A DNA stretch of 23,919 bases. Origin: a virus. The stretch's first letter is position 1; each line of letters opens with the position of its first letter. Made by a program: the position numbers and the translations under genes. The notes beneath the pieces were generated by a model. That model had not been told where the DNA came from. It saw only the letters and a program-made list of their open reading frames with translations, and did not search any database. Positions 2,561 through 23,330 of this stretch are shown here, in pieces. The DNA lies in IMG/VR virus record IMGVR_UViG_3300030098_003677, positions 1-23,919 of that record; one strand, given 5' to 3'.

Positions 2561-3091
2561 ATGATAGAAGAAGGAGTTCAGATGAACGAAGAAGCAAAAC
2601 CAGTACAGGAAAGTACACCTAAGATTCAAGACGAATCTGTTGACTATAAAGCACTCTATCTTGACGAAGTGCAGAATGCAAAAAAACTTCGCAAGAGAGC
2701 GCAGGATGCAGAAGTAACGATTCAAGAAAATATGAAGAGACAGGAAACCTTGAAAGTTAAACGAATGCAGGAACAGGAAAAATATAAGGAATTATATGAA
2801 TCCGTTGCTCCGTTTAAAGACAAATGGGAATCTTATGAGTCTGCTCGTAAAGAAGCGTTACTCTCAAAGCTGCCAGAGGAAGATAGAGAAGATTTAAATC
2901 AGAAAGATTTAGAAACTCTCGAATATATTGTAAGACTCAAAGAAGAGTCTAAGCCTGTTAATCCAGCACATAATCCAGGAATGCCTAGAAGTATTCCTTT
3001 AGAATTTAATAAGCCTTATTCTGAAATGAGTGAACAAGAAAAAAGAGCTTATTATACTCACAAAGCTAATGAACAGGCTAATCGAAATTAA
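2561..3091 (+). CDS. Probable capsid scaffolding protein
   Basis: The 176-residue protein lies immediately upstream of the major capsid gene, the classic scaffold position. It is highly charged and cysteine-free. A long predicted coiled coil (about residues 27-95, for example VQNAKKLRKRAQDAEVTIQE) is followed by an acidic segment and a Pro-containing tail ending YYTHKANEQANRN. Scaffolds of this type fill the prohead and leave before or during packaging. Two starts are plausible: ATG 2561 with GGAG about 7 bases upstream, or ATG 2582 with AAGGAG about 5 bases upstream giving MNEEAKPVQ; the second has the better ribosome site. No capsid protease gene is visible between portal and capsid gene, so the scaffold probably exits without a phage maturation protease. 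Function is inferred from position and composition. Confidence 0.7.
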   Translation: MIEEGVQMNEEAKPVQESTPKIQDESVDYKALYLDEVQNAKKLRKRAQDAEVTIQENMKRQETLKVKRMQEQEKYKELYESVAPFKDKWESYESARKEALLSKLPEEDREDLNQKDLETLEYIVRLKEESKPVNPAHNPGMPRSIPLEFNKPYSEMSEQEKRAYYTHKANEQANRN

Positions 3092-3093
3092 TA

Positions 3094-3130
3094 ATCCTAC
3101 CCGAAGATGGCTTATGCCATAGTTGAGGAT
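3094..3130 (+). promoter_or_regulatory. Stem-loop in the leader of the major capsid gene
   Basis: Two nested inverted repeats lie in the scaffold-capsid spacer: inner ATGGC (3107-3111) pairs with GCCAT (3116-3120) around a TTAT tetraloop, and outer ATCCT (3094-3098) pairs with AGGAT (3126-3130). No T-run follows, so it does not look like a terminator. It may be an mRNA-processing or stability hairpin that raises capsid protein output. The capsid ribosome site (AGGAG at about 3143) stays outside the stem. Confidence 0.4.
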
Positions 3131-3153
3131 GGATAAAATATTAGGAGCTTAAA

Positions 3154-4236
3154 ATGGCATTAGCACCAACAAATGCAGTTGCTTTAGCTGGTGGTCTTCA
3201 GGATTCCGGTGTAGACGCGACTTTACAACATTTCATACCCGAAGTTTGGGGTGCATCAATTATGGACTATATGGAAAAAAATCTAGTATTTGCAAAATTA
3301 GCGACTGACCAGTCTGCTATGGTTGCAGGTGGTGGAGATTTGATCCATCTTCCAAAACACACAGAAGTTACAGCAAGTGATACCTATGGTGGTGGAACAG
3401 TAGCTGTCGAAACTTTGATAGATTCTAATTTAGCGTTTGATGATTCAACTGCTAAAGAAGATGAATATCAATTAGCTATCAATCAGGGTATCCATAGTGC
3501 AATAGCTATTACCGATGTTGCAAAAGTACAAGCTAGTTACGATGTGATGAATCTTTATACATCAAAACTTGGTTATGCTTTAGCTAAGAAGATAGACGCT
3601 TATGTCGCAATAAAATTATTTGAGCATATCTCATATAATTATGCTAATGGAACTGATGATGGCAATGGAGCAGGTAATCTTATCTTATTGGCAAGTGGAA
3701 GTCATGATTCATATGATATAACAACTACTGGAGTTGCATCTATGATAGAGAAAATTTATACTAACGATTCCAATATTGAAGATTGGACTATGGTATTAGT
3801 ACCTAAATGTTATTCTAGTCTATTTAAACTAGGTGACTTTGCTAGATATGATGGCATTGGTACATCTCTTGGTGGCGAAGTTCCATTTATTAGCGGTTAT
3901 GCTGGTAAATTGGCTGGAGTAAATGTTGTAGTTGCAAATAACTTTCAGCATTATGGTTCTAGTTCTTCTACTCAAGCACAGTCAGCAGTTCCTCAAGGTA
4001 ACTTTAGTGCAAATGGTGTAGCAGATGAAAGTGAATTACTTGTTGGATATTTAGTTCACAAGGATGCTATACATATTGCCTACTCACGAGGCATGAAAGC
4101 TAGAGTTCAAAGCGACTATCATCTACCAACTCTATCTACAAGATTTGTTGCAGATAGTGTATATGGATGTACAGTTACTGGAAGCGGAACTGCCGGAAAT
4201 CAAAAGGTATTCTGTCTTACAAGTCCAGCTAGTTAA
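3154..4236 (+). CDS. Major capsid protein (HK97-fold)
   Basis: This 360-residue protein follows the scaffold and has an AGGAG ribosome site about 6-7 bases before ATG. The N-terminal segment FIPEVWGASIMDYMEKNLVF (about residues 27-46), then GGGDLIHLPKHTEVTASDTY and DEYQLAINQGIHSAIAITDV, is the pattern of tailed-phage coat proteins in which an N-arm leads into the E-loop and spine helix (VMNLYTSKLGYALAKKIDAY). Composition is Ala/Gly/Ser-rich with few Cys, as expected for a virion protein made in bulk. Strong flanking hairpins on both sides of the gene agree with a separately tuned, abundant transcript. No N-terminal protease-cleaved domain is evident. The call is confident; subfamily is not assigned. 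Confidence 0.87.
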   Translation: MALAPTNAVALAGGLQDSGVDATLQHFIPEVWGASIMDYMEKNLVFAKLATDQSAMVAGGGDLIHLPKHTEVTASDTYGGGTVAVETLIDSNLAFDDSTAKEDEYQLAINQGIHSAIAITDVAKVQASYDVMNLYTSKLGYALAKKIDAYVAIKLFEHISYNYANGTDDGNGAGNLILLASGSHDSYDITTTGVASMIEKIYTNDSNIEDWTMVLVPKCYSSLFKLGDFARYDGIGTSLGGEVPFISGYAGKLAGVNVVVANNFQHYGSSSSTQAQSAVPQGNFSANGVADESELLVGYLVHKDAIHIAYSRGMKARVQSDYHLPTLSTRFVADSVYGCTVTGSGTAGNQKVFCLTSPAS

Positions 4237-8556: not shown

Positions 8557-9375
8557 ATGCCAACATTTACAGGGAAAAAGTTTAGCGATTTTTACAAAAA
8601 TCTTTTAAGTATAAGTCAATCTTCTAATACAGGTGTTGATGCGACTACAAGGCAGGTAGAAGATGGAGATGGAAATAATACTTGCTTTAGAATTAGTGAT
8701 GATAGAATGACAATATTACCTAATAATGATAATATGACTAATACATTCGGAGTTGGTAATACAGCAGGTAGCGAGTGTTTTGCAGTTGATACTGTCAATC
8801 AAATAGTAAAAATTGGTCAAACAGGAACATCAGCAAACACTCAGTATGCACATTTTGGGATACATGGTAATGACTCAGGCTGGGCAGGTGCTTCAGCAGA
8901 TACTCATTATGCAGTTCCATTTACACCAATAGGCACATTAAGCAATTTGGTTTCTCTTGGAAGTTCAACGAGTTCAAGTTTTAACGATACAAACCCAGCA
9001 ACAAGTTTAACTATATCTTCTACTGCAAATTCAGCTACATCAGTATATTGGTATGTAATGGATGATATAACAATAGATGCAGTTAAATGGCTTCATGGTG
9101 CTGATACTGCTACAGGAGAAGCTACTGCAGGTCATTTGATGGCATATTCAGTAGATACAGCCAATGGTTCAACAGGAGGTGATTTATCGTCAGGGGTGGT
9201 TGTAGCAGATGGAAGCAATATAACAAATGCAGGAAATGAACAAATATATTATCAGTCTATGACAATACAGTCGGCAGATGTAGATGCAGGAAAGATTATA
9301 TTATTTGCATTTGCATCAGATACTGTAAATTCAGACTACACAATTAATGCAACAGTAAAATATCATATAAGGTAA
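8557..9375 (+). CDS. Beta-rich virion surface protein (fibre-like)
   Basis: A 272-residue protein with a GGAG ribosome site before ATG. The N-terminus (MPTFTGKKFSDFYKNLLSIS) is a short helical, basic segment of the sort that anchors fibres, followed by QVEDGDGNNTCFRISDDRMT, reminiscent of the bead-on-string start of fibre stems. The C-terminal two thirds (about residues 120-272) alternate Ser/Thr and small residues, for example SVYWYVMDDITIDAVKWLHG, and end in TINATVKYHIR, compatible with a jelly-roll or concanavalin-like head. No enzymatic motif is visible. It belongs with its neighbours to a run of surface-exposed proteins. Specific role not assigned. Confidence 0.5.
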   Translation: MPTFTGKKFSDFYKNLLSISQSSNTGVDATTRQVEDGDGNNTCFRISDDRMTILPNNDNMTNTFGVGNTAGSECFAVDTVNQIVKIGQTGTSANTQYAHFGIHGNDSGWAGASADTHYAVPFTPIGTLSNLVSLGSSTSSSFNDTNPATSLTISSTANSATSVYWYVMDDITIDAVKWLHGADTATGEATAGHLMAYSVDTANGSTGGDLSSGVVVADGSNITNAGNEQIYYQSMTIQSADVDAGKIILFAFASDTVNSDYTINATVKYHIR

Positions 9376-9387
9376 AAGGAGAAAATT

Positions 9388-11037
9388 ATGCCATCTAAAC
9401 CATTACAGGCATCGCCATTAAGCAAGTCAAGAGTTCTTAGAAAAAAAAGAACACCAGCTACATCAACTAAAAAAGATGTTAGTTATGTTGCAAGTGGAAC
9501 AAAATCAAGTCAAATTGTAGCTTTTGCAGGAACAGATAGTGATACTGTAACAACAGCAGAGGTAACAAAAGAGGTAACAATACAGAATGTTGGTAATTTT
9601 CCTGTAGTTGCGATGATAGGTTATCAGGGCTATAGTGATGAGGATACACAAGGACAAACAATTTTTCTTCATACCTTATTAAAGCCTAATGAAATGATAA
9701 GTCCAAGTTTAAGAGGTATAATAAGCACACAAGGTTCAAACGATGATCATACTAATGGAAGTTTTGCAGATAGATCATTGTGGAACTTAGATGGCGAGGT
9801 ACTTGATTGGACTGCTCCAAATACAGCTTTAAAAGTAGATGCAGGGGATAATGTTGCATCAGGTGAAGCTAATAATACAACTGATCCTGTTGTTTTTGAG
9901 CTTGATAATGGACACGAGAAGTATCGTGTAGGAGATTATTTAAGAATAGAAAATGAAATTGTAAAAGTAGAAGGAACTTACGATGATAATCCAACAAGTT
10001 CAACAGTTGCAGATAACCATATAGTAGTGTCGAGAGGTCATTTTGGTAGCACTACAGCTTCACATAGTAGTACCCCTGATGTTTATTTTGCAATAGCAAA
10101 TGAGCATTATGATTTTGATAGACCTTTGTCAGGTAGCTCACAACTTGTTCAAACAGATGGACTTGGAAGATTTAAAGTATCTAATTTCTTTGGATATGGG
10201 AGAGATAATTCTGCTTCAGCACCTTTTGGATTGGTTGCTGGAACAGTAGCTTTTAGATTTTATAGTTCTGCTTATCAAGAAGTTATGTGTGGTGGAACAG
10301 GTGCAGATGGTGGTGCTGCAGGTGCAAATTTACCTATAACAGCATCAACAGATAGTAAGCTCACAGCAGGTGGAACTGCCTATGCTTTTAATATCACGAT
10401 TGATGATAGTTCTGCAACAACAGTTAGCTTTACTACTGATACTTCTAATACAAACTTTGGTGGAACAAATGGTATAATAAGCAAAATACAAGCAGCACTT
10501 GATACTGCATCAACAACGGCAGGAAATGGTCTTTTTGGTTATACTTGCACAGTAAGTATTGTAGATGGAAAGTTGAGATTTACTTCAAATTCGCATTTAC
10601 TACCTCACGATGGAACAAATGGTTCAAAAATATTACTTGCAGATGCAGGAAGTGGAACAAATCTATTTGCTGGAAGCTCAGGTATATTCCCTGATATAGT
10701 TATGGTTAATGCTCCAGTTGCTCCAGCACTACCTGATCTTAATGTTTATGATCTTATAACTTATGGGAAAAGTGTTAATATGGTAGGTATATGTTATGAC
10801 GATGCGAATGGTAATTTAGTAGGAGCAGCAAGTGGAACAGTAAATTATGAAACAGGTGCGATTGATATGGTAAATGCACCAAAAAATGCTTCGTTTGAAA
10901 TATCTGTAACTTACAATTCGCCTTTTAGTGGTAAATTAGATGCGAATAAAAGTGATGCTAATATGATTAAATCAATTCATGCGAATACACTAAGCAAGAA
11001 TATGACAAGTCAAATAGAAGTTAAAACTTACAAATAG
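9388..11037 (+). CDS. Large multidomain virion protein
   Basis: A 549-residue protein with AAGGAG upstream of ATG. Residues 1-30 are basic and probably unstructured (SRVLRKKRTPATSTKK). About residues 175-235 contain KYRVGDYLRIENEIVKVEG and VVSRGHFGSTTASHSS, a small beta domain I have seen in many phage structural proteins ('vGd.i.i..E...V' then 'v.RG..Gt.a..H'). About 320-430 form a second beta/alpha unit (AYAFNITIDDSSATTVSFTT, then GIISKIQAALDTA and DGKLRFTSNSH). The C-terminus reads VNYETGAIDM and ends QIEVKTYK. The segmented make-up suggests a fibre, collar or capsid-surface protein. It closes the fibre-like block and precedes the connector gene. Confidence 0.55.
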   Translation: MPSKPLQASPLSKSRVLRKKRTPATSTKKDVSYVASGTKSSQIVAFAGTDSDTVTTAEVTKEVTIQNVGNFPVVAMIGYQGYSDEDTQGQTIFLHTLLKPNEMISPSLRGIISTQGSNDDHTNGSFADRSLWNLDGEVLDWTAPNTALKVDAGDNVASGEANNTTDPVVFELDNGHEKYRVGDYLRIENEIVKVEGTYDDNPTSSTVADNHIVVSRGHFGSTTASHSSTPDVYFAIANEHYDFDRPLSGSSQLVQTDGLGRFKVSNFFGYGRDNSASAPFGLVAGTVAFRFYSSAYQEVMCGGTGADGGAAGANLPITASTDSKLTAGGTAYAFNITIDDSSATTVSFTTDTSNTNFGGTNGIISKIQAALDTASTTAGNGLFGYTCTVSIVDGKLRFTSNSHLLPHDGTNGSKILLADAGSGTNLFAGSSGIFPDIVMVNAPVAPALPDLNVYDLITYGKSVNMVGICYDDANGNLVGAASGTVNYETGAIDMVNAPKNASFEISVTYNSPFSGKLDANKSDANMIKSIHANTLSKNMTSQIEVKTYK

Positions 11038-14053: not shown

Positions 14054-14508
14054 AATCCCTCATACTTTCATTAAATGTCCTAAATGATAATTGGTGTGAG
14101 GGGTGTAATTTTCATAGCTACCCTTATAAAGCTAAAGCTCCTATAGTTGGAGCAAAAAATAAAATTTTTAAATGTGATGATGATGTATGGGATGTAGTTA
14201 AACTATTAGCGGATGAAACTAGGAATATGAATAAAATGACTAATAAAAATTTTGACATTGTAAGCTCAGTATCACATCAATTGCCTCATTTCAGCTGTAT
14301 AAATATTATATTTGATAAGAAATATCAACGAGATATTTCAAAATATTTATACTGTAAAGAATTTTCTGTTCCTCCTTTTAAAGGTTCTTATGAAGATCAA
14401 CCTTATAAATGGATTCAAAAAGTAAATATTATACAACATGCTATTGCAAAAAGGAATGAAATGGAAAGAGTAAAAATCAAGAATAGCACAGGAGCTAACA
14501 ATGGCTGA
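14047..14508 (+). CDS. Tail assembly chaperone T-domain, made as a frameshift extension (GT-like)
   Basis: This frame is -1 to the G-like gene, is open from 14011, and has no ATG, GTG or TTG before ATG 14227. A slip at 14044-14048 would yield a 255-residue fusion reading ...YQSLG then GIESLILSLNVLNDNWCEGC. The added 153 residues contain Cys-x-x-Cys (WCEGCNFHSYPYK), a later Cys-Asp-Asp-Asp, and C-terminal helices (WIQKVNIIQHAIAKRNEMER). The T part of such fusions binds the tape measure. Its end overlaps the tape measure start by 8 bases. Separate initiation at ATG 14227 (AGGA only 3 bases upstream) is possible but would waste 180 bases of open, well-composed coding sequence. Confidence 0.7.
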   Translation, partial: GIESLILSLNVLNDNWCEGCNFHSYPYKAKAPIVGAKNKIFKCDDDVWDVVKLLADETRNMNKMTNKNFDIVSSVSHQLPHFSCINIIFDKKYQRDISKYLYCKEFSVPPFKGSYEDQPYKWIQKVNIIQHAIAKRNEMERVKIKNSTGANNG

Positions 14509-16492
14509 ATTAGATTTAAGTTCCCATTTAAGAGAAGCTAGACAAGCAGCAAAGAATATGGCAGATTCCATGGCAGGTAGCGTCAATCAAACTAAAAATT
14601 TAAATGATGCTGTCAGTCAAGGAGCTACAGGTGTCAAAAATTTAAGAAATCAAACAAAATTAGCAACCCTTGGATTTGCAAATTTTAATAGAATATTGTC
14701 TATAGTTCGTTCTAGAATGTTAATAATTGCTTTTGCATCAAGCAAAACTATAGGAGTTCTTAATAGATTAGCCAAACAGGGTGCTAGAGTTGAATCTATG
14801 GCTCGTGCATTTGATACATTATCAGGTTCTGCTCAGAAGTCTAGACTTGCAATGAGAAGGCTTCAAGAAGCTACAAATGGCACTATGTCTCAAATGGACT
14901 TACTTAAACAAGCAAATAATGCTATGGTTCTTGGAGTTAGCAAAAATTCTAAAGAAATGGCTGAAATGTTTGATATTGCACAAAGGCTGGGTCGTGCATT
15001 AGGACAAGATACTGCAAAATCTGTAGAATCTCTTATTACAGGTATAGGTAGACAATCTCGTCTCATGTTAGATAATATTGGTATCATTGTTAAATCTGAT
15101 GAAGCATATGAAAAATATGCAGAAAAAATAGGAACAACTGCTAGTAAATTGACAGATGCAGAGAAAAAACAAGCATTTTTTAATGCTACTATGGAATCTG
15201 CTAGAGAAAAGGTTGAAACATTAGGAGATGAAACTCTTACATCTCAAGATGTATTTGATCAATTTGGAACAGCTGCTGAAGATTTTGGCATAGCTATAGG
15301 TAAATTTGTTTTACCTGTTTTTGTAGATATGCTTGAAACAATAACTCCTGTAATTACCGGTATAAATGATTTTTTTCATTTAATGAAACACGGGCCGCCA
15401 ACATTTAATCCTTTTGAAGATTGGGCAGATAGTATCCCTGATAATATAGAAGCAGTAGAAAAAGAGTTAAATGTATTAAAACAGCAAAGACAAGCTCTTT
15501 TAAAAACCAATGAAGATACTAAAGAGACTGTCAAGTCAAATGAACAGCTTGGAGAGAGCTTTGAAATTCTAGGAATGCATACCGAAAATACTGCGAATGG
15601 TATAATAACAGTTGTTGGACAAGGTGCAGACGAACTTGCCGCCTATACTCTGGCTCACGGTGTAACAAAAGAATCTATGGATGCTTTTTATTTGGCTCAA
15701 ACTAATGCTACAGAAGGTGTAGCAGAATTTGCTGAGAATATTGATACAATTAATCCTACTATATCAGACCTAGAGGCAAAAATTGCACATCTTGTAGATT
15801 TATTGAAAGTTCTAAGAGGAGCAACAGATAATTCTAAAGATGGTTTGCAAGAATGGGCAAAAGGATTTGAAAAAGAATTTGTCCATCCTATAATGCAAGG
15901 ATGGGGAATGGCAACAGAAACTGCCAATATGTATTTTCAATCTGTTCAGCAAGGCTTTGCACAGGAAATGCGAGAACTAAAGAAAAGTGAAGAATTTCAA
16001 AACATGTCAAGAGAACGTCAAAGACAAGAAATTAAAAAACTAGAAAATAGTCAACGCCAAGGTAAACAGACTGCCTTTAAACAGCAAAAAGCATTAACTA
16101 TGGCTAATATTGTAATGAGTACGGCAGAAGCTATAATTAATGCATTAACTGTAAAACCTCTAATTCCTACTGGATACGCTTTAGCTGGTTTTGCAGGAAC
16201 AATGGGTGCGGCTCAACTTGCTATTGCCTCTAAACAAAAAATGCCTGCTTTTGCTACAGGTGGTGATTTTATTACTGCTGGACCACAAGCAATTATGGTT
16301 GGAGATAATCCCGGTGGTCGTGAAAGAGTTCAAGTTACACCTTTATCTTCTCCAAATATAGCTGGACCGCAAGGTGGATCGGTAACAGTAAATATATCTG
16401 GAAATATTATGTCACAAGATTATGTAGAAGAAGTTCTATCAGATCAAATTAAAGAAGCTGTAAGAAGAGGAAGTGACTTTGGAATTGGTTAA
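14501..16492 (+). CDS. Tape measure protein
   Basis: A 663-residue, mostly helical protein after the chaperone pair, with GGAG at good distance from ATG. It has long coiled-coil-like stretches (first 60 residues, about 310-350 and 480-545), a hydrophobic segment near residue 75 (RMLIIAFASSKTIGVLNRL), and a second Ala/Gly-rich hydrophobic region near 550-578 (GYALAGFAGTMGAAQLAIAS). The end has the typical MPAFATGGDFITAGPQAIMV and GGRERVQVTPLSS motifs of tape measures. Tape measures set tail length at roughly 0.15 nm per residue, so a tail of about 100 nm is expected. It also probably forms the membrane channel for DNA entry. Confidence 0.9.
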   Translation: MAELDLSSHLREARQAAKNMADSMAGSVNQTKNLNDAVSQGATGVKNLRNQTKLATLGFANFNRILSIVRSRMLIIAFASSKTIGVLNRLAKQGARVESMARAFDTLSGSAQKSRLAMRRLQEATNGTMSQMDLLKQANNAMVLGVSKNSKEMAEMFDIAQRLGRALGQDTAKSVESLITGIGRQSRLMLDNIGIIVKSDEAYEKYAEKIGTTASKLTDAEKKQAFFNATMESAREKVETLGDETLTSQDVFDQFGTAAEDFGIAIGKFVLPVFVDMLETITPVITGINDFFHLMKHGPPTFNPFEDWADSIPDNIEAVEKELNVLKQQRQALLKTNEDTKETVKSNEQLGESFEILGMHTENTANGIITVVGQGADELAAYTLAHGVTKESMDAFYLAQTNATEGVAEFAENIDTINPTISDLEAKIAHLVDLLKVLRGATDNSKDGLQEWAKGFEKEFVHPIMQGWGMATETANMYFQSVQQGFAQEMRELKKSEEFQNMSRERQRQEIKKLENSQRQGKQTAFKQQKALTMANIVMSTAEAIINALTVKPLIPTGYALAGFAGTMGAAQLAIASKQKMPAFATGGDFITAGPQAIMVGDNPGGRERVQVTPLSSPNIAGPQGGSVTVNISGNIMSQDYVEEVLSDQIKEAVRRGSDFGIG

Positions 16493-16862
16493 ATTAAAAA
16501 TAGTTAATTTTTTATTAAAAATAAATATAACAATAGGTAAAAGATTAGCATTTTATCAAGCTAAATTTAAAGCATATCAAGAAGTTGAAAGTGCAGTTAA
16601 GAAAGAAAAGTTTGATCTTCGTGGAATGGGCAATAGATTAAAAAATGTTTTTTTACACGATCAGGATATTATAGATAAAAGATGGGCAGAATGTGAAAAG
16701 TGTGAATTTTTGATAAAATCAACAAATCAATGTGATAAATGTAAATGCTTTATGAAAGTGAAGACGAGAGTAGCTACAGCTTCTTGTCCTATTGGAAAGT
16801 GGGGAAAAGAATATAATTTTATTGAAGGCAAAAAAGTAAATGGCATTAACACTACCACCTAG
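16473..16862 (+). CDS. Cysteine-rich zinc-ribbon-like protein
   Basis: A frame of up to 129 residues that starts inside the tape measure end; possible starts are GTG 16473, TTG 16479 and TTG 16485, so the N-terminus is uncertain. The C-terminal half has C74-x2-C77-x9-C87-x2-C90-x-C92 and a later C105 within ASCPIGKWG, six Cys arranged like a zinc ribbon or knuckle. Small proteins ending 'C....A.CP.gkW' occur in many marine phages; their function is unknown to me. The first 50 residues are basic and hydrophobic, possibly amphipathic helices. The end overlaps the tail-tip gene by 23 bases. A metal-binding tail-assembly factor or small virion protein is the best guess. Confidence 0.65.
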   Translation: MTLELVKLKIVNFLLKINITIGKRLAFYQAKFKAYQEVESAVKKEKFDLRGMGNRLKNVFLHDQDIIDKRWAECEKCEFLIKSTNQCDKCKCFMKVKTRVATASCPIGKWGKEYNFIEGKKVNGINTTT

Positions 16863-19800
16863 CTTTAACAAAGACTTAGAAAGCCAATCTATATCATTAA
16901 TTCCAGTTGTTGTTATTGGTAATTTCCCATTACAAGGTAGTAGTATAGAATGGAGTAATTATGTAGGATATTTTTCAACTAATCAATTAAGCATACCTAT
17001 TCAAGGAATAGCAACAAACGATGGTATAGCAGCACCTACATCATCAATTCCAACTCTTATAAGTATACCATCTTTAAAAGAATCAATAGATATAGAAAAG
17101 CGAAATTATAAAATAAGTTCTGTTAATATAAGAATTTCAAATTTACCTTATAATGATAAGCGATTTTCGGAAATGGTAGATACATCTTTAATTAATTTAG
17201 AATGTAGAATATTTTGGTTATCCCCTTCTACTAAAATTATTTATACAGAAAAACATAATACTACACAGGAACAAAGGATAAATTCAGCTTTTCAAATGTA
17301 TTATGGAGTAATTAGAAGGTATGAACACAATGATTCTGAGGTAAATATAACTTTAGAAGATAAAAGTCAAGACCTTTTTCATAATGATATTGTAACAGAA
17401 ACTTTGTCAGGAGATGTTCCTGATAAATATATAGATAGTCCTATTCCAAAAGTATATGGAAATGTAGATAGAAGTCCTATTATATGGAATAAATCAGAAA
17501 CAGTTGAATCTGCAGCTTTTACTGGAATGGCAAAAGGTGTTGTTAACTATAATTTACATTGTGAAACAGAAGATGTAACATATAATGATCCACCTTTATA
17601 TATTTATACATCTGATGGACATTGTGAAGTTTTAGAAAATAAAGAAAGAGACTTAGTTCAAAAACTTGATGTAAATCAAACAATGCCAGAAGCATTTTAT
17701 GATTTTCAAGTTAATGATATTTATAGAATATCTAATAATTCTCCAAATATTATATTGCCTTCAATTTTTTATTTTTCTTATCACTCTGCTATGGGTCTTG
17801 ACGATTTAGATGAATTATTAACAACTGTAAAAAATAAAAATTTAATTTCATCAGGACTTGTTCAATGTAAAAGAGAAAATGTAATTGAACAATGGATAAT
17901 TAATGATCCGTTTGAAGGATCATGGTCAGCATATGGACATGATATTATACCAGAGAAACCATCTGGTATAGATAATAAATTTAGATTTGGATATACAGGT
18001 AATAATGGAAATATACAAAATCAAGGAATAATACAATCAAATTTAGATATGACCAATATCAATAATTTAATATTTTCAAATGCAGCTTTAAGAATAGTGT
18101 TTCCAAATATTACAGATTTTGAAGGCTCAGTTCATACAGAGCTATCAGGTGTTATAAATATTGCAATAATAGGATATGGAGGATCAATTAACCTTGGATT
18201 TAATATAGTTGACAATACATCAGAAGAAAATGGAAAAGTATTAGAAGAGGTACTTACTTTTACAACTGATGGCTCTAATGTATCAGAGTATAATGAAAAA
18301 CAGCTAAATATAACACGTTTATGGCATATAGCTATGCACGAATATACTTTAGAATTTAGACCTTTACAATGGGGTGGGCAAACTTATCTTAATTTGCTTG
18401 TAGATACTCATGGAGTTGGATTAACTCATACATATTGGTGGAATGTTAATTTTTTAGATAAAAATTTTTATGCAAATATAGTTGGTAGACTTAAAACGCC
18501 TACTATAGCATCTTTATTTTCTAGTATTTCAAATTCAGAGCTTGGACAAAATATTAATTTATCAGAAGGTAATTATACAGGAAGCGGAACAAATGATAAT
18601 GGTGATTTAGCAAATAATTTTATATATGATGTAACTTTAAATAAAAAAATAAATTCTAAGAAGTTATTTGAAACAATAGCATCATCTTCTCCTTATATAC
18701 CAAGATATAATACAATAAAAGGTTTTACGTTAAATGAAATACCTTTTAATGGTGGAAGTGTTGTTAAGACAATAAAAGCAAAAGATTGTATTGATTTTAC
18801 TTATAAAAGAACTAAGATAGAAGAAGTATATAATAGGGTGGAATTGCATTACCATTATGATTATGGAGCAAGAAAATTAACAAAAAAAATTACAGCAGAA
18901 CTTGAATATCCACAAGATACTTATGATTACTATGGATTAAAACAGCCTTCAACTCTTATTATAGATGATGATAGAGGTAAATACATTAGAAGAACTTGTA
19001 CTGCTGAAATGGTAGCAAAGTGGCTTTTATCATGGTATAGAAACCAAAAGCTAATTTTAAAAGTAAAACTACCATTGTATTATATGGAGTTAGAGATTGG
19101 TGATGTAATTGATTTTGATGAACTGCTTGGTGCAAGTGTAAAGCCATATAATATAGATTATACAAAGAATAATACTTTTATGCCTCCTATTGAAACAGGA
19201 GAAGTTAGTACAACATCGCAAATTATGTATGGAAGATTTTTTATATTAAAAACAAATAAAAATTTAGATTTTTGTGAAATTGAATGTATACAGCTACCAC
19301 ATCTTGTAAATTATTCAGAAGCAAATTGTGTAGATGATCCTGATAGCAATATAACTGGATCCCCTGATGGTATGTGTTCACAGGATAGCGTAGAAGATGC
19401 ATGTGGTGAATGTGGTGGAATAGCAAGACAAGAAGGTGAATTTATTTATTACGGAGATAATCCACAGCCATATATTAATTGTGATGGTGTTCCTGCCGCA
19501 TTTTGTTATCAATGCGAAGATAGAGAGAAATATGGAGATATAGGTTGTGGGCAGGGGCAATATTATCCAATAGAAAATTGTCAAGATTGGTTTGTAGAAG
19601 ATGTGCTTTCACCACTATGCGATAATAATGATGGAGGAGTTTGCAATGATTGTCCTTCTGATACTTTTGATTGTTTAGGTGAGTGTGATGGTAATGCAGT
19701 TGTAGACTGTAATGGTATTTGTAATGGCGATGCAGTTGAGGATCAATGTGGAGTTTGTGGGGGAGATTGTGAGAATTTACTTGATCCTACTGTTGGGTGT

Positions 19801-21684
19801 AATAACTGTGGAGATGAATATGCGATTAATTATATAGGTTGTAATACAGGGCAAACACATGATTGCAGAGATGCTTTAACTGTAACTGCTTGTCTTGATG
19901 ATTCTACTGATCCTAATTATTTATGGAATTTGATGCCTGATAGACAAGGATTAACTGACGAGGGAAAAAGAGCAGGATGGTTTTATGCAAGAGATTATAT
20001 GTATCCAAACGGAGGTGATGATGTAGATTGGCAAAAATTATATAGAGTTATACAAGCATATTGTAATGGTGAAGATTTAGCAGATGCAGATAATTTTGAT
20101 TTAGGTGATGAATTTGGAAGTGCAGGAGTAGACTTTGGAACAAATACAGACGATTGTACTTGGAAGAGCCAAAGACCTGCAGGTGATCGCTTAACTGGAT
20201 ATTATGGAAACAGGTTATCAACAGGAGAAGTTTTTCCTGATGTTTGTAGTTCTCAGAATAAATCGCTTGACCGTATTCCTCATAATGAGACTTCTGAGTT
20301 AGTTACATATGGATATTATCCTGTAATTGTTTTTAGTGCTTATGATTGGCAACCAAGTCCTAATGGAAAAGTACCTTGTAATACTCCTGTATGTATTAAT
20401 AGCGATGAAATTCCTGAACAAGATATATATCAAGAAGAAAAAGATCAGTTATTATTTGCACATATAGCAACATCAGGATTTGAAGATGGGCAGAATCAAA
20501 TATATAAAAAGGTAAATGGAGCTTTAGTAGAGTTAACAGATGAAGAATATAATACTTTTCCAGCAGGATATAAAGATGGCAAATATGTATATTCAAAACC
20601 CATATTAACAACTAATATAATAAGAGCCTGTAGTACTTTAGATTTTAATTTATACTCAAATTATTATAATAAAAATGGTTATCCATTAGCTGGTTATTTA
20701 GAAAATGGTGATGCTTTTACAGATTTAGACAATTACGATCAATTAGAAACTGAAGATGGTGGAAATTGTATAGTTAAAAACGATTGTCCTGAAGGAACAT
20801 TTACAGAAGATTGGTTAAATCAGGTGTCTGAAACAGGTGAAATTGAAGAAAACGTATTTGATATAAATTGCACTCCAAATTTAAATAAAAATTCCCAAGA
20901 ATTTACAGGAATTAAAATAGCTTCTAATTCAAGTGAATATGCCTCTGTTCTTGGTGATGCTTTTATAAGGGCAAAGTTTCATGGAATAAATGATTTTGTT
21001 AATTCTGATCATTGGAAATTTAGAATTTACCAAGACATAGAAATTCAAATAGATGATGACGAAGGTGGTTGGTATGTAATAAATAGAAATTTAAGCCAAG
21101 CATTAAATAATGAAAATGTTGATTTTATATGTGGAGAGGGTTGGGAAAGCTGTGAAGTTCAAGCTACTATAGAAAATTATGACGAAGTAAATAAAACATT
21201 AGAAGTTACACTACCTTTATTTAGACATAGATCATTTTTAGAATGGTTAAGCGATAATTATGATTCAACAGAATTAACAAATAGTTATGATTCGTCAGGT
21301 TGGAGAGGAGAGGAAGGAAAGATAGCAAAATTTAGATATAGATATAAAATATATTTAATTCCTAATTCTTATAATACAATTTATGACAGTTATGGGCAAT
21401 TAAATGAGGGTGTATATGTTTTTGGAGACGGTGCATATAAAAATTTAATATTTTCATCATGTGAAACAGGAGATTGTTGTACTGTAGCACAGCAAGGAGA
21501 TTTAAATAATGATGGCTTATACAATGTATTAGATATTGTTACTTTAGCTCAATGTATACTTTCTAATGATTGTGCTGAAATAGGTGCAACTTGCACAGCA
21601 GATTTAAATGAAGATGGAAGTTTTAATGTATTAGATATAGTTGCTTTATCAAATTGTGTATTAGAAGGAAATTGTGGTACGTAA
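16840..21684 (+). CDS. Giant tail-tip/hub protein with Cys-rich repeats and dockerin-like C-terminus
   Basis: The largest gene, 1614 residues. Residues 1-840 look like a tail hub: early beta domains (SLKESIDIEKRNYKISSVNI, FQMYYGVIRRYEHNDSEVNI), an insertion at about 250-620, and a conserved-looking core near 660-830 (EEVYNRVELHYHYDYG; WLLSWYRNQKLILKVKLPLY; LEIGDVIDFDE) as in gpJ/hub proteins. Residues about 842-992 are Cys-rich, with CLGECDGNAVVDCNGICNGD and CGVCGGDCENL resembling ADAMTS and bacterial surface 'CGVCGGD' repeats. The far end (1553-1614) holds two dockerin-like Ca loops: D1554-N1556-D1558-G-N1562-D1565 and D1588-N1590-D1592-G-N1596-D1599. It follows the tape measure region, as expected of a tip protein. 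The C-terminal 770 residues are unusual for a phage and probably face the host. No signal peptide is seen. Confidence 0.75.
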   Translation: MALTLPPSFNKDLESQSISLIPVVVIGNFPLQGSSIEWSNYVGYFSTNQLSIPIQGIATNDGIAAPTSSIPTLISIPSLKESIDIEKRNYKISSVNIRISNLPYNDKRFSEMVDTSLINLECRIFWLSPSTKIIYTEKHNTTQEQRINSAFQMYYGVIRRYEHNDSEVNITLEDKSQDLFHNDIVTETLSGDVPDKYIDSPIPKVYGNVDRSPIIWNKSETVESAAFTGMAKGVVNYNLHCETEDVTYNDPPLYIYTSDGHCEVLENKERDLVQKLDVNQTMPEAFYDFQVNDIYRISNNSPNIILPSIFYFSYHSAMGLDDLDELLTTVKNKNLISSGLVQCKRENVIEQWIINDPFEGSWSAYGHDIIPEKPSGIDNKFRFGYTGNNGNIQNQGIIQSNLDMTNINNLIFSNAALRIVFPNITDFEGSVHTELSGVINIAIIGYGGSINLGFNIVDNTSEENGKVLEEVLTFTTDGSNVSEYNEKQLNITRLWHIAMHEYTLEFRPLQWGGQTYLNLLVDTHGVGLTHTYWWNVNFLDKNFYANIVGRLKTPTIASLFSSISNSELGQNINLSEGNYTGSGTNDNGDLANNFIYDVTLNKKINSKKLFETIASSSPYIPRYNTIKGFTLNEIPFNGGSVVKTIKAKDCIDFTYKRTKIEEVYNRVELHYHYDYGARKLTKKITAELEYPQDTYDYYGLKQPSTLIIDDDRGKYIRRTCTAEMVAKWLLSWYRNQKLILKVKLPLYYMELEIGDVIDFDELLGASVKPYNIDYTKNNTFMPPIETGEVSTTSQIMYGRFFILKTNKNLDFCEIECIQLPHLVNYSEANCVDDPDSNITGSPDGMCSQDSVEDACGECGGIARQEGEFIYYGDNPQPYINCDGVPAAFCYQCEDREKYGDIGCGQGQYYPIENCQDWFVEDVLSPLCDNNDGGVCNDCPSDTFDCLGECDGNAVVDCNGICNGDAVEDQCGVCGGDCENLLDPTVGCNNCGDEYAINYIGCNTGQTHDCRDALTVTACLDDSTDPNYLWNLMPDRQGLTDEGKRAGWFYARDYMYPNGGDDVDWQKLYRVIQAYCNGEDLADADNFDLGDEFGSAGVDFGTNTDDCTWKSQRPAGDRLTGYYGNRLSTGEVFPDVCSSQNKSLDRIPHNETSELVTYGYYPVIVFSAYDWQPSPNGKVPCNTPVCINSDEIPEQDIYQEEKDQLLFAHIATSGFEDGQNQIYKKVNGALVELTDEEYNTFPAGYKDGKYVYSKPILTTNIIRACSTLDFNLYSNYYNKNGYPLAGYLENGDAFTDLDNYDQLETEDGGNCIVKNDCPEGTFTEDWLNQVSETGEIEENVFDINCTPNLNKNSQEFTGIKIASNSSEYASVLGDAFIRAKFHGINDFVNSDHWKFRIYQDIEIQIDDDEGGWYVINRNLSQALNNENVDFICGEGWESCEVQATIENYDEVNKTLEVTLPLFRHRSFLEWLSDNYDSTELTNSYDSSGWRGEEGKIAKFRYRYKIYLIPNSYNTIYDSYGQLNEGVYVFGDGAYKNLIFSSCETGDCCTVAQQGDLNNDGLYNVLDIVTLAQCILSNDCAEIGATCTADLNEDGSFNVLDIVALSNCVLEGNCGT
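19363..19815 (+). repeat. Cys-rich CGVCGGD-type repeat region inside the tail-tip gene
   Basis: Codons 842-992 encode repeated Cys-Gly/Asn-x-Cys units, densest at codons 944-977 (19669-19770). The motif CGVCGGD is shared with ADAMTS cysteine-rich domains and with surface proteins of some marine bacteria. DNA repeats such as GATGCAGTTG-type segments recur imperfectly within it. Confidence 0.7.
21496..21681 (+). repeat. Tandem dockerin-like Ca-binding repeat at the tail-tip C-terminus
   Basis: Two copies spaced 34 codons apart encode GDLNNDGLYNVLDIV (from codon 1553) and ADLNEDGSFNVLDIV (from codon 1587). The copies share the exact run AATGTATTAGATAT. Each copy is followed by a Cys (C1572 and C1606), and further Cys (C1578, C1585, C1612) could add disulphides in an extracellular setting. 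Confidence 0.8.
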
Positions 21685-21698
21685 AGCGAGGAATAAGA

Positions 21699-22391
21699 AT
21701 GGCTAAATTATATTATGGATCAGGAAATTGTAGTATAGATGGGGAAGGTACTGAAATAATGGGTGTAGAAATTCGCTATTCGGGTGCGATTTCAATAATA
21801 GACAAAACACCTGAGCATTTTACTATAATGACAGGAGCAGATGGAATTTTAATATTTCCTATAACAAATATGAATATGGAATTTAGCACTTTTTTGTCTA
21901 ATTTATTTGATTATGAAGGTAGATTTGAAATTAAATCAATATTAGTAGCAGGAATTGGTGGTGTAAGGGTTCAAACATCTATTAATAGAGTAATGGATTA
22001 TGCAGAACTTATAGATACAAATGCAGAAGATATGGATATAGTAAGCGAAGATATGTCTGCTGGATATATATCAGGTAAAAGGAAAATAACTAAAACTGTT
22101 ATTGATAAAAGTACTATAGATCGTTTACATACTAATGATTATGATATAACACTATTTAATGAAGATGGAGATGTTTATAATGGCGAATTTCATGTGCATA
22201 AAAATGGAACTGCAATGTCAGGTGCTATACATACAGAAGAATCACAAGTGCTTTATTTATTAACCAAAAAGCAAAAAAGAAGAAAAACATATACAGTTGG
22301 ACTTAAATCAACTAAAACAAAAAAGGAAACAACAAAAGCAAAACAAATAGTACGGTCTATGACAGCAAGTAAAACATCAGGAGGATATTAG
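21699..22391 (+). CDS. Conserved-looking tail-associated virion protein
   Basis: I start this 230-residue protein at ATG 21699, which has GCGAGGA about 8 bases upstream, rather than at in-frame TTG 21654 inside the tail-tip gene. It begins MAKLYYGSGNCSIDGEGTEI and continues through IMTGADGILIFPITNMNMEF, NRVMDYAELIDTNAEDMDIV, LHTNDYDITLFNEDG and HKNGTAMSGAIHTEESQVLY, then a Lys-rich tail (KKQKRRKTYTVG). I recall similar proteins in uncultured marine phages, without assigned function. The folded part appears alpha/beta; the tail may bind nucleic acid or a charged surface. It lies next to the tip gene, so a baseplate or late-assembly role is likely. Confidence 0.6.
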   Translation: MAKLYYGSGNCSIDGEGTEIMGVEIRYSGAISIIDKTPEHFTIMTGADGILIFPITNMNMEFSTFLSNLFDYEGRFEIKSILVAGIGGVRVQTSINRVMDYAELIDTNAEDMDIVSEDMSAGYISGKRKITKTVIDKSTIDRLHTNDYDITLFNEDGDVYNGEFHVHKNGTAMSGAIHTEESQVLYLLTKKQKRRKTYTVGLKSTKTKKETTKAKQIVRSMTASKTSGGY

Positions 22392-23330
22392 ATGGCACAA
22401 ACAGTACAAACTCCACGATTTTGGATAAATGAGTTACAATTTTGTAATTTTAATAACTACAATCCAATTGACAATCAATCATATAATTCTATTTTTAATA
22501 CATTGCCAGTTCAACTAAAAGAACCAACGTTAATTACACAAGATTTAATTATTGATAATAATATTTATGATGAATACCATGCTAATTTTAAGTTTCCATA
22601 TCAATTAAATAATCCATTTATAGCAGTTCTTGGGCATAAAAATTTAGATGATTTTGGAATAATTGGTGATGTAGATCATAATAACCCTGTATCTATAAAT
22701 TTTGAAAATGGTTCTATTAATGATGGTTGGAGTTTAAAAACTACAGGAAATACTATTGCTCAAATTAAAATGAGTTCTACAACAAATCTTGAAATAGGTT
22801 CTATTATAATAGGCTCATATTTTGATACACCCCATTCTCCTGATCTTTCATTAAAAATAAACTATGATTACTCAGGTGTAAAAAAAACAACAACTAGAGG
22901 AGGCTCAACGCTTATTAATACACAGTATTATAAAAATCCTAAGTGGGGCAATGATCTTGGTGCATGGGAAATAGCAAGAGAAAATAATCAAACTTATACC
23001 ATATATAACAATTTATCAAAATCAGGAAGTAGAATATGGGATCTATCTTTTTCATATTTCAATGATTCTGACATATTCCCTGATACTTTAAATTTAACAA
23101 ATATGAATAGTAGTAATTTTGATGGTGGATTAAATACAGGAACAGATTTTTATGGACAGGTAATACATAGAACTGCAGGTGGTGCTTTGCCTTTTATCTT
23201 CTCTCCAGACGGGTCTAGTACCGATCTAGACAATTTTGCAATATGCACATTTGATCAAAACTCTTTTCAATTTGATCAAGTTGCACCTGCAGTCTATAAC
23301 GTATCATTAAAAATAAGGGAGATATGGTAA
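22392..23330 (+). CDS. Distal-tail/baseplate-like virion protein
   Basis: A 312-residue protein directly abutting the preceding stop, with AGGAGG at about 22380-22384. It is beta-rich and Asn/Asp-rich: PRFWINELQFCNFNNYNPID at the start, DGWSLKTTGNTIAQIKMSST in the centre, and a C-terminal stretch SRIWDLSFSYFNDSDIFPDT ... LPFIFSPDG ... FAICTFDQNSFQFDQVAPAV ending YNVSLKIREIW. The final part (image: 'lPFif.pd...fAi..f....f...qva..vYn..lkIrEvW') is the layout of distal-tail type domains that bridge tube and hub. A Dit-like or minor tail function is a moderate inference; a fibre attached to the tip is the alternative. It is the last + strand gene. Confidence 0.5.
   Translation: MAQTVQTPRFWINELQFCNFNNYNPIDNQSYNSIFNTLPVQLKEPTLITQDLIIDNNIYDEYHANFKFPYQLNNPFIAVLGHKNLDDFGIIGDVDHNNPVSINFENGSINDGWSLKTTGNTIAQIKMSSTTNLEIGSIIIGSYFDTPHSPDLSLKINYDYSGVKKTTTRGGSTLINTQYYKNPKWGNDLGAWEIARENNQTYTIYNNLSKSGSRIWDLSFSYFNDSDIFPDTLNLTNMNSSNFDGGLNTGTDFYGQVIHRTAGGALPFIFSPDGSSTDLDNFAICTFDQNSFQFDQVAPAVYNVSLKIREIW

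Follow-up and report, generated by a model that had tools for sequence, protein, structure and literature searches.

The last 62 residues of a phage tail-tip protein are, as judged by profile, sequence and predicted fold, a genuine type I dockerin, and the module is conserved over a large family of uncultured marine phages. The protein is encoded in a stretch of viral DNA of 23,919 nucleotides, referred to here as the window (positions 1 to 23,919 of the IMG/VR record IMGVR_UViG_3300030098_003677). Few protein-protein pairs are known to bind as tightly as dockerin and cohesin. What would a phage do with one half of this pair? We think it fairly probable that the phage mimics a dockerin tag of its host and uses it to dock on cohesins at the host surface; the host, the partner and the role in adsorption are the inferred parts of this explanation.

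The tail-tip gene (16840..21684, plus strand) encodes 1614 amino acids, and the dockerin occupies residues 1553-1614 (GDLNNDGLYNVLDIVTLAQCILSNDCAEIGATCTADLNEDGSFNVLDIVALSNCVLEGNCGT; 21496..21681, plus strand). It contains two loops of the form DxNxDGxxNxxD, whose first aspartates lie 34 residues apart at positions 1554 and 1588, and each loop is followed by LDIV and then a helix. The initial annotation had read this arrangement as the layout of a type I dockerin, and both the pattern and its interpretation hold. The first loop is DLNNDGLYNVLD (residues 1554-1565; 21499..21534) and the second DLNEDGSFNVLD (residues 1588-1599; 21601..21636), both on the plus strand. Each has aspartate or asparagine at positions 1, 3, 5, 9 and 12, the predicted calcium ligands. 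When 42 phage and host dockerins are aligned, D1 and D12 of loop 1 and D12 of loop 2 are invariant, and D5 of loop 1 and both D1 and D5 of loop 2 are conserved at 90% or more.

Profile searches and structure prediction, both proposed earlier as checks, agree with this assignment. On their own, the 62 residues match PF00404 (Dockerin_1) with 36 bits and E = 8.1e-9 over nearly the full profile, so the match is not due to chance. Within the whole 1614-residue protein the score is 28.3 bits; both values exceed the curated cut-off of 22.9 bits, and the dockerin is the sole Pfam match in the protein. The single tip sequence finds cellulosomal dockerin structures (2y3n, 5e-5; 1daq, 8e-5), and a profile of the tip dockerin and its relatives finds solved dockerins at 7.6e-12 (2ccl) and 3.4e-11 (1ohz). 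From the 42-sequence alignment of dockerins from phages and hosts, AlphaFold2 predicts three helices at dockerin positions (residues 22-34, 43-46 and 56-68 of the modelled stretch) with a pLDDT of 86.7. The top 31 Foldseek matches of this model in the PDB are all dockerins, many of them solved bound to cohesin, with probabilities of 0.85-1.00 and TM-scores by target of up to 0.89; the best E-value is modest (4e-3) because the module is short, about 60 residues. As a dockerin, the module would probably bind calcium and a cohesin. The same tip gene occurs in a second record, IMGVR_UViG_3300030329_003210, with 99.8% DNA identity and no differences within the dockerin; this record is part of the sequence collection itself, and the two may represent close strains of one sample.

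What kind of protein carries the dockerin? The first 828 residues (16840..19323, plus strand) form a conserved core that has no significant sequence match in Pfam, PHROGs, the PDB or INPHARED, and the tip protein as a whole has none in PHROGs. The AlphaFold2 model of the core is of mixed quality, with a mean pLDDT of 64.5 and blocks over residues 701-760 at about 83-92. Its top Foldseek matches in the PDB are the tail tips of T5, DT57C, lambda and T1, with probability 1.00 and E-values of 1.3e-14 for the best, T5 pb3, and 2.1e-12 for lambda gpJ; TM-scores against known tail hubs are about 0.2-0.4, the model being good only in parts. Because of this mixed quality, the identity of the hub rests on fold together with gene order. 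The tip follows the tape measure gene in the tail gene block (14501..16492, plus strand; phrog_3779, tail length tape measure protein, E 1e-20), as do the T5 pb3 and lambda gpJ hubs. On these two grounds we identify the carrier as the tail hub of a siphophage, similar to pb3 and gpJ, in keeping with the tail-tip setting proposed at the outset. The likeness extends to the presence of a C-terminal extension, whereas sequence identity between the cores is about 10%. In lambda, the C-terminus of gpJ binds the receptor: gpJ contacts LamB through its own fibre domain, while T5 uses a separate protein, pb5. To our knowledge neither pb3 nor gpJ carries a dockerin.

A cysteine-rich stretch and a variable region separate the core from the dockerin. 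The former, read from the sequence as a linker of DCxGxCxG-type repeats, spans residues 846-1018 (19375..19893, plus strand); repeats of this type also occur in two other loci (L004 and L039) and in a cohesin protein of Neomarinimicrobiota (L031). The whole tip contains 51 cysteines, five of them inside the dockerin, a feature not known to be typical of cellulosomal dockerins. Directly after the tip lies an open reading frame (MAKLYYGSGNCSIDG...; 21699..22391, plus strand) that is conserved in the phage family and whose counterpart in three relatives is preceded by a dockerin-bearing gene. Next comes a conserved gene of the MAYQNVGTPRFYV type that probably encodes a virion protein (22392..23330, plus strand). 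In L046 its relative (9221-11032), which is of the MAYQNVG type and located two genes past the tip, contains a second dockerin. Between tape measure and tip, a small open reading frame (16473-16862) contains a Cys-x2-Cys cluster (WAECEKCEFLIKSTNQCDKCKCF) and is also found in L004.

How widely is the tip dockerin distributed among phages? Searches with the full-length protein and with a 120-residue N-terminal stretch returned only the record itself, so an alignment of the core was needed. Scanning 2.9 million viral contigs with this alignment gave 35 loci, in which the section found corresponds to residues 581-824. Gene ends could be read in 28 of these relatives, and 23 have a dockerin, which in 20 forms the C-terminus of the tip and in three lies in the next gene; this count was made by hand and takes in two loci whose scores fall under the Pfam cut-off (L044 and L071) and one, L058, assigned to the tip class by inference since its tip is split over contig ends. 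Pfam at E <= 0.01 calls a dockerin in 17 of the 28 aligned tips. Where the dockerin is in the next gene (L045:9044-9694, L048:9086-9736 and L053:9383-10033), the tip lacks one and a separate gene of 217 amino acids ends in it. The remaining five relatives are without a proper dockerin, and three of these end in a single degenerate loop. In two loci (L042:6072-10934 and L071:5676-9860) tip and next gene share one open frame and the proteins look fused.

Scans led by the dockerin give a similar view of its position. The 42-sequence dockerin alignment was too varied for scanning and two tighter alignments were used instead. Among 97 dockerin open reading frames of the fetched viral loci, 61 contain the hub core, and in 58 of these the dockerin lies within 10 residues of the C-terminus. 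When all core-bearing frames are clustered at 90% identity, 58 of 71 clusters have a tip dockerin, a count biased towards dockerins by the scans that supplied it, unlike the core-led 23 of 28; no more than 10 residues follow the dockerin in 55 of the 58. The homologues sought among viral proteins thus exist, and conservation at the C-terminus of the tip is the rule among them.

Where else do such dockerins occur? Among 84,980 species genomes, the cellular protein that best matches the window dockerin is a secreted one from Neomarinimicrobiota (Marinimicrobia, SAR406), with 62% identity at 1e-20; here too the dockerin is C-terminal, with the same cysteine pattern and layout. The genome encoding it has 67 dockerin matches in 1.9 Mb. 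Across the phylum, dockerins are found in 150 of 244 genomes and cohesins likewise in 150. Both occur together in 116 genomes, more often than expected by chance (Fisher p 2e-10), and a cohesin is present in 26 of the 28 dockerin-rich genomes; in 34 genomes with dockerins, no cohesin was detected. In 30 of 38 parsed host dockerins the protein ends within 25 residues of the second loop. The majority of 36 cohesin loci carry a lipobox-like signal or a T9SS sorting domain, as assigned by motif and not by a localisation test, and their cohesins are thus probably located at the cell surface. The simplest reading is that the pair appears to serve surface display, secreted proteins plugging through C-terminal dockerins into anchored cohesins.

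Marinimicrobia are the probable hosts of the window phage, a proposal drawn from the likeness of the modules and from distant prophages. Cysteine-rich repeats are common to the tip protein and to Neomarinimicrobiota proteins. Four genomes of the phylum contain prophage-like regions with the same core, and in two of these (L079 and L080) the gene neighbours, read from the sequence, resemble those of the window. We had expected the prophages found in the phylum to carry dockerins, but their tips end after the core. The genomes that bear them have 0-2 dockerin matches each, and the prophage contigs are GC-rich, 52-63% where read at length, versus 33% for the window. These regions show that the wider family infects Neomarinimicrobiota; they are not evidence for the window phage itself. 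Weaker core matches in 2 of 395 Bacteroidota genomes mean that the core occurs in more than one phylum. One hub core in a Bacteroidota genome (G509:C1:633364-634197) lies on a 3.6-Mb contig, and related phages may infect Bacteroidota.

Several comparisons bear on the history of the module. Divergence of the dockerin is correlated with that of the core (Mantel r 0.37). In a comparison that took in only 22 host sequences, several phage dockerins nevertheless have their nearest relative in the set on the host side and not among the other phages, as in L047 (74% versus 65%) and L043 (70% versus 62%). For the pair L066 and L068, amino acid identity is 70% in the dockerin and 91% in the rest of the tip, and dN/dS is 0.78 in the dockerin versus 0.48 elsewhere in the tip, a mild excess from one pair and 57 codons. 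The likeness between phage and host modules and the divergence of this pair are compatible with turnover at a recognition site, although the numbers are small.

We propose the following model. The tip dockerin would have been captured from the probable Marinimicrobia hosts and kept similar to theirs. In the host, secreted proteins would be fixed to the cell surface by inserting C-terminal dockerins into cohesins on lipoproteins or T9SS-sorted proteins, and the phage tail would present the same plug at its distal end. With calcium, the tip dockerin would dock on these surface cohesins much as the C-terminal domain of lambda gpJ does on LamB, and docking would precede opening of the hub, as in T5 and lambda. 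Docking to a host-surface cohesin was one of three roles put forward by the initial annotation. It is the best supported of them, given the C-terminal dockerins and the lipobox or T9SS cohesins of the likely host phylum. Whether the model extends to the whole marine siphophage family, so that all would adsorb through a host-copied C-terminal dockerin renewed from the host repertoire as hosts diversify, we regard as evenly balanced.

A second proposed role was that of a joint in the virion, the dockerin holding a cohesin-like virion protein such as a separate receptor-binding protein. Dockerin-cohesin pairs do build protein assemblies elsewhere, and this role would suit both the small dockerin gene beside the tip in L045, L048 and L053 and the additional dockerin on a neighbouring virion-type gene in L046. 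The cohesin sought in the phages themselves was not found, in contrast to the candidate host phylum: PF00963 has no match at E <= 1 in the window and none at E <= 0.1 in 26 related viral records, although cohesin-like folds with low scores would escape this profile. A joint in the virion should also be conserved together with its partner, yet some of the phage dockerins are nearer to those of hosts. The negative cohesin search weakens this proposal, and we consider it quite unlikely.

The calcium loops might instead merely stabilise the end of the tip or, as in the third role put forward, make it a calcium-dependent adhesin for a target other than cohesin, such as a polysaccharide or another surface protein. 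It is true that the ligand positions are the best conserved, that calcium is plentiful in seawater and that five relatives have a single degenerate loop or none. What is matched, however, is the full two-loop dockerin solved with cohesins and not a single EF hand, and dockerins co-occur with cohesins in the probable hosts; this makes such a role rather unlikely. Could the module be a recent host fragment without function, or a misassembly of host and phage DNA? Its resemblance to host genes would be explained, but the gene recurs in the second record, tip-ending dockerins are found in dozens of diverged relatives, and the calcium ligands are kept with dN/dS below 1. Misassembly and chance matching are ruled out by the PF00404 score, the second record and the family-wide conservation, and we find this last explanation as a whole barely credible. 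Docking on host cohesins remains the reading we prefer.

How does this module compare with known ones? It shares the two-loop pattern, length, fold and C-terminal position of the type I dockerins of clostridial cellulosomes (PF00404; 1ohz, 2ccl, 6kgf). It differs in sitting on a phage tail hub, and no scaffoldin with cohesins, the mark of a cellulosome, was found in the window or in the 26 related viral records. Closer are the non-cellulosomal C-terminal dockerins of Neomarinimicrobiota (for instance L007, ORF 2958-4109), with 61-62% identity and the same cysteine pattern and C-terminal layout; the L007 protein starts like a secreted protein, whereas the phage tip is made in the cytoplasm as part of the virion.

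Dockerin-like modules in phage proteins have been named before. Examples are three proteins called 'Dockerin type 1' (A0A8S5M688, A0A8S5UCJ3 and A0A8S5NQH0) and the product of gene 40 of phage VvAW1 (PMC3558961). The names come from similarity alone, the fold matches here are weak (E 0.05-0.4), and we found nothing that would tie such modules, across a family, to a tail hub or to cohesins of a host. Neither the whole tip protein nor its dockerin has a relative in 50,697 phage records. Two unannotated human gut phages (MT835815.1 and MT836518.1) have a dockerin-like stretch that matches the dockerin of a relative at about 38% (E 3e-4 and 3e-3). A literature search that covered few subscription papers returned nothing linking Marinimicrobia with dockerins and nothing on dockerin-based phage adsorption. 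The presence of a dockerin in a phage protein is thus already known; what appears to be new is that it recurs on the tail hub across a family and is matched to a host phylum with cohesins.

Dockerins also occur in other viral settings. In four marine viral contigs (L190:5143-6267, L186:5071-6408, L206:3076-6285 and L212:4918-6159) a dockerin is joined to an enzyme, either a protease (trypsin, subtilase) or an arylsulfotransferase. Several of these contigs have genes that, read from the sequence, look T4-like (polymerase, clamp loader), and some of the enzyme-dockerin proteins begin like lipoproteins or with a signal-like stretch, which would suit export followed by docking on the host surface. 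A protein of a 131-kb viral contig (L237:5830-6465) has at its end the T9SS sorting domain PF18962 (1.7e-8), which is a surface-export signal of host type.

If the docking model is correct, these phages would recognize cells by a new route, borrowing the pair that the host itself uses for surface display. The lipobox and T9SS-sorted cohesins would become testable receptors for the phages of an ocean phylum that is abundant but uncultured, and such phages could be assigned to their hosts by a rule based on sequence. It would also raise the question of what the many dockerins and cohesins of Marinimicrobia do for the cell.
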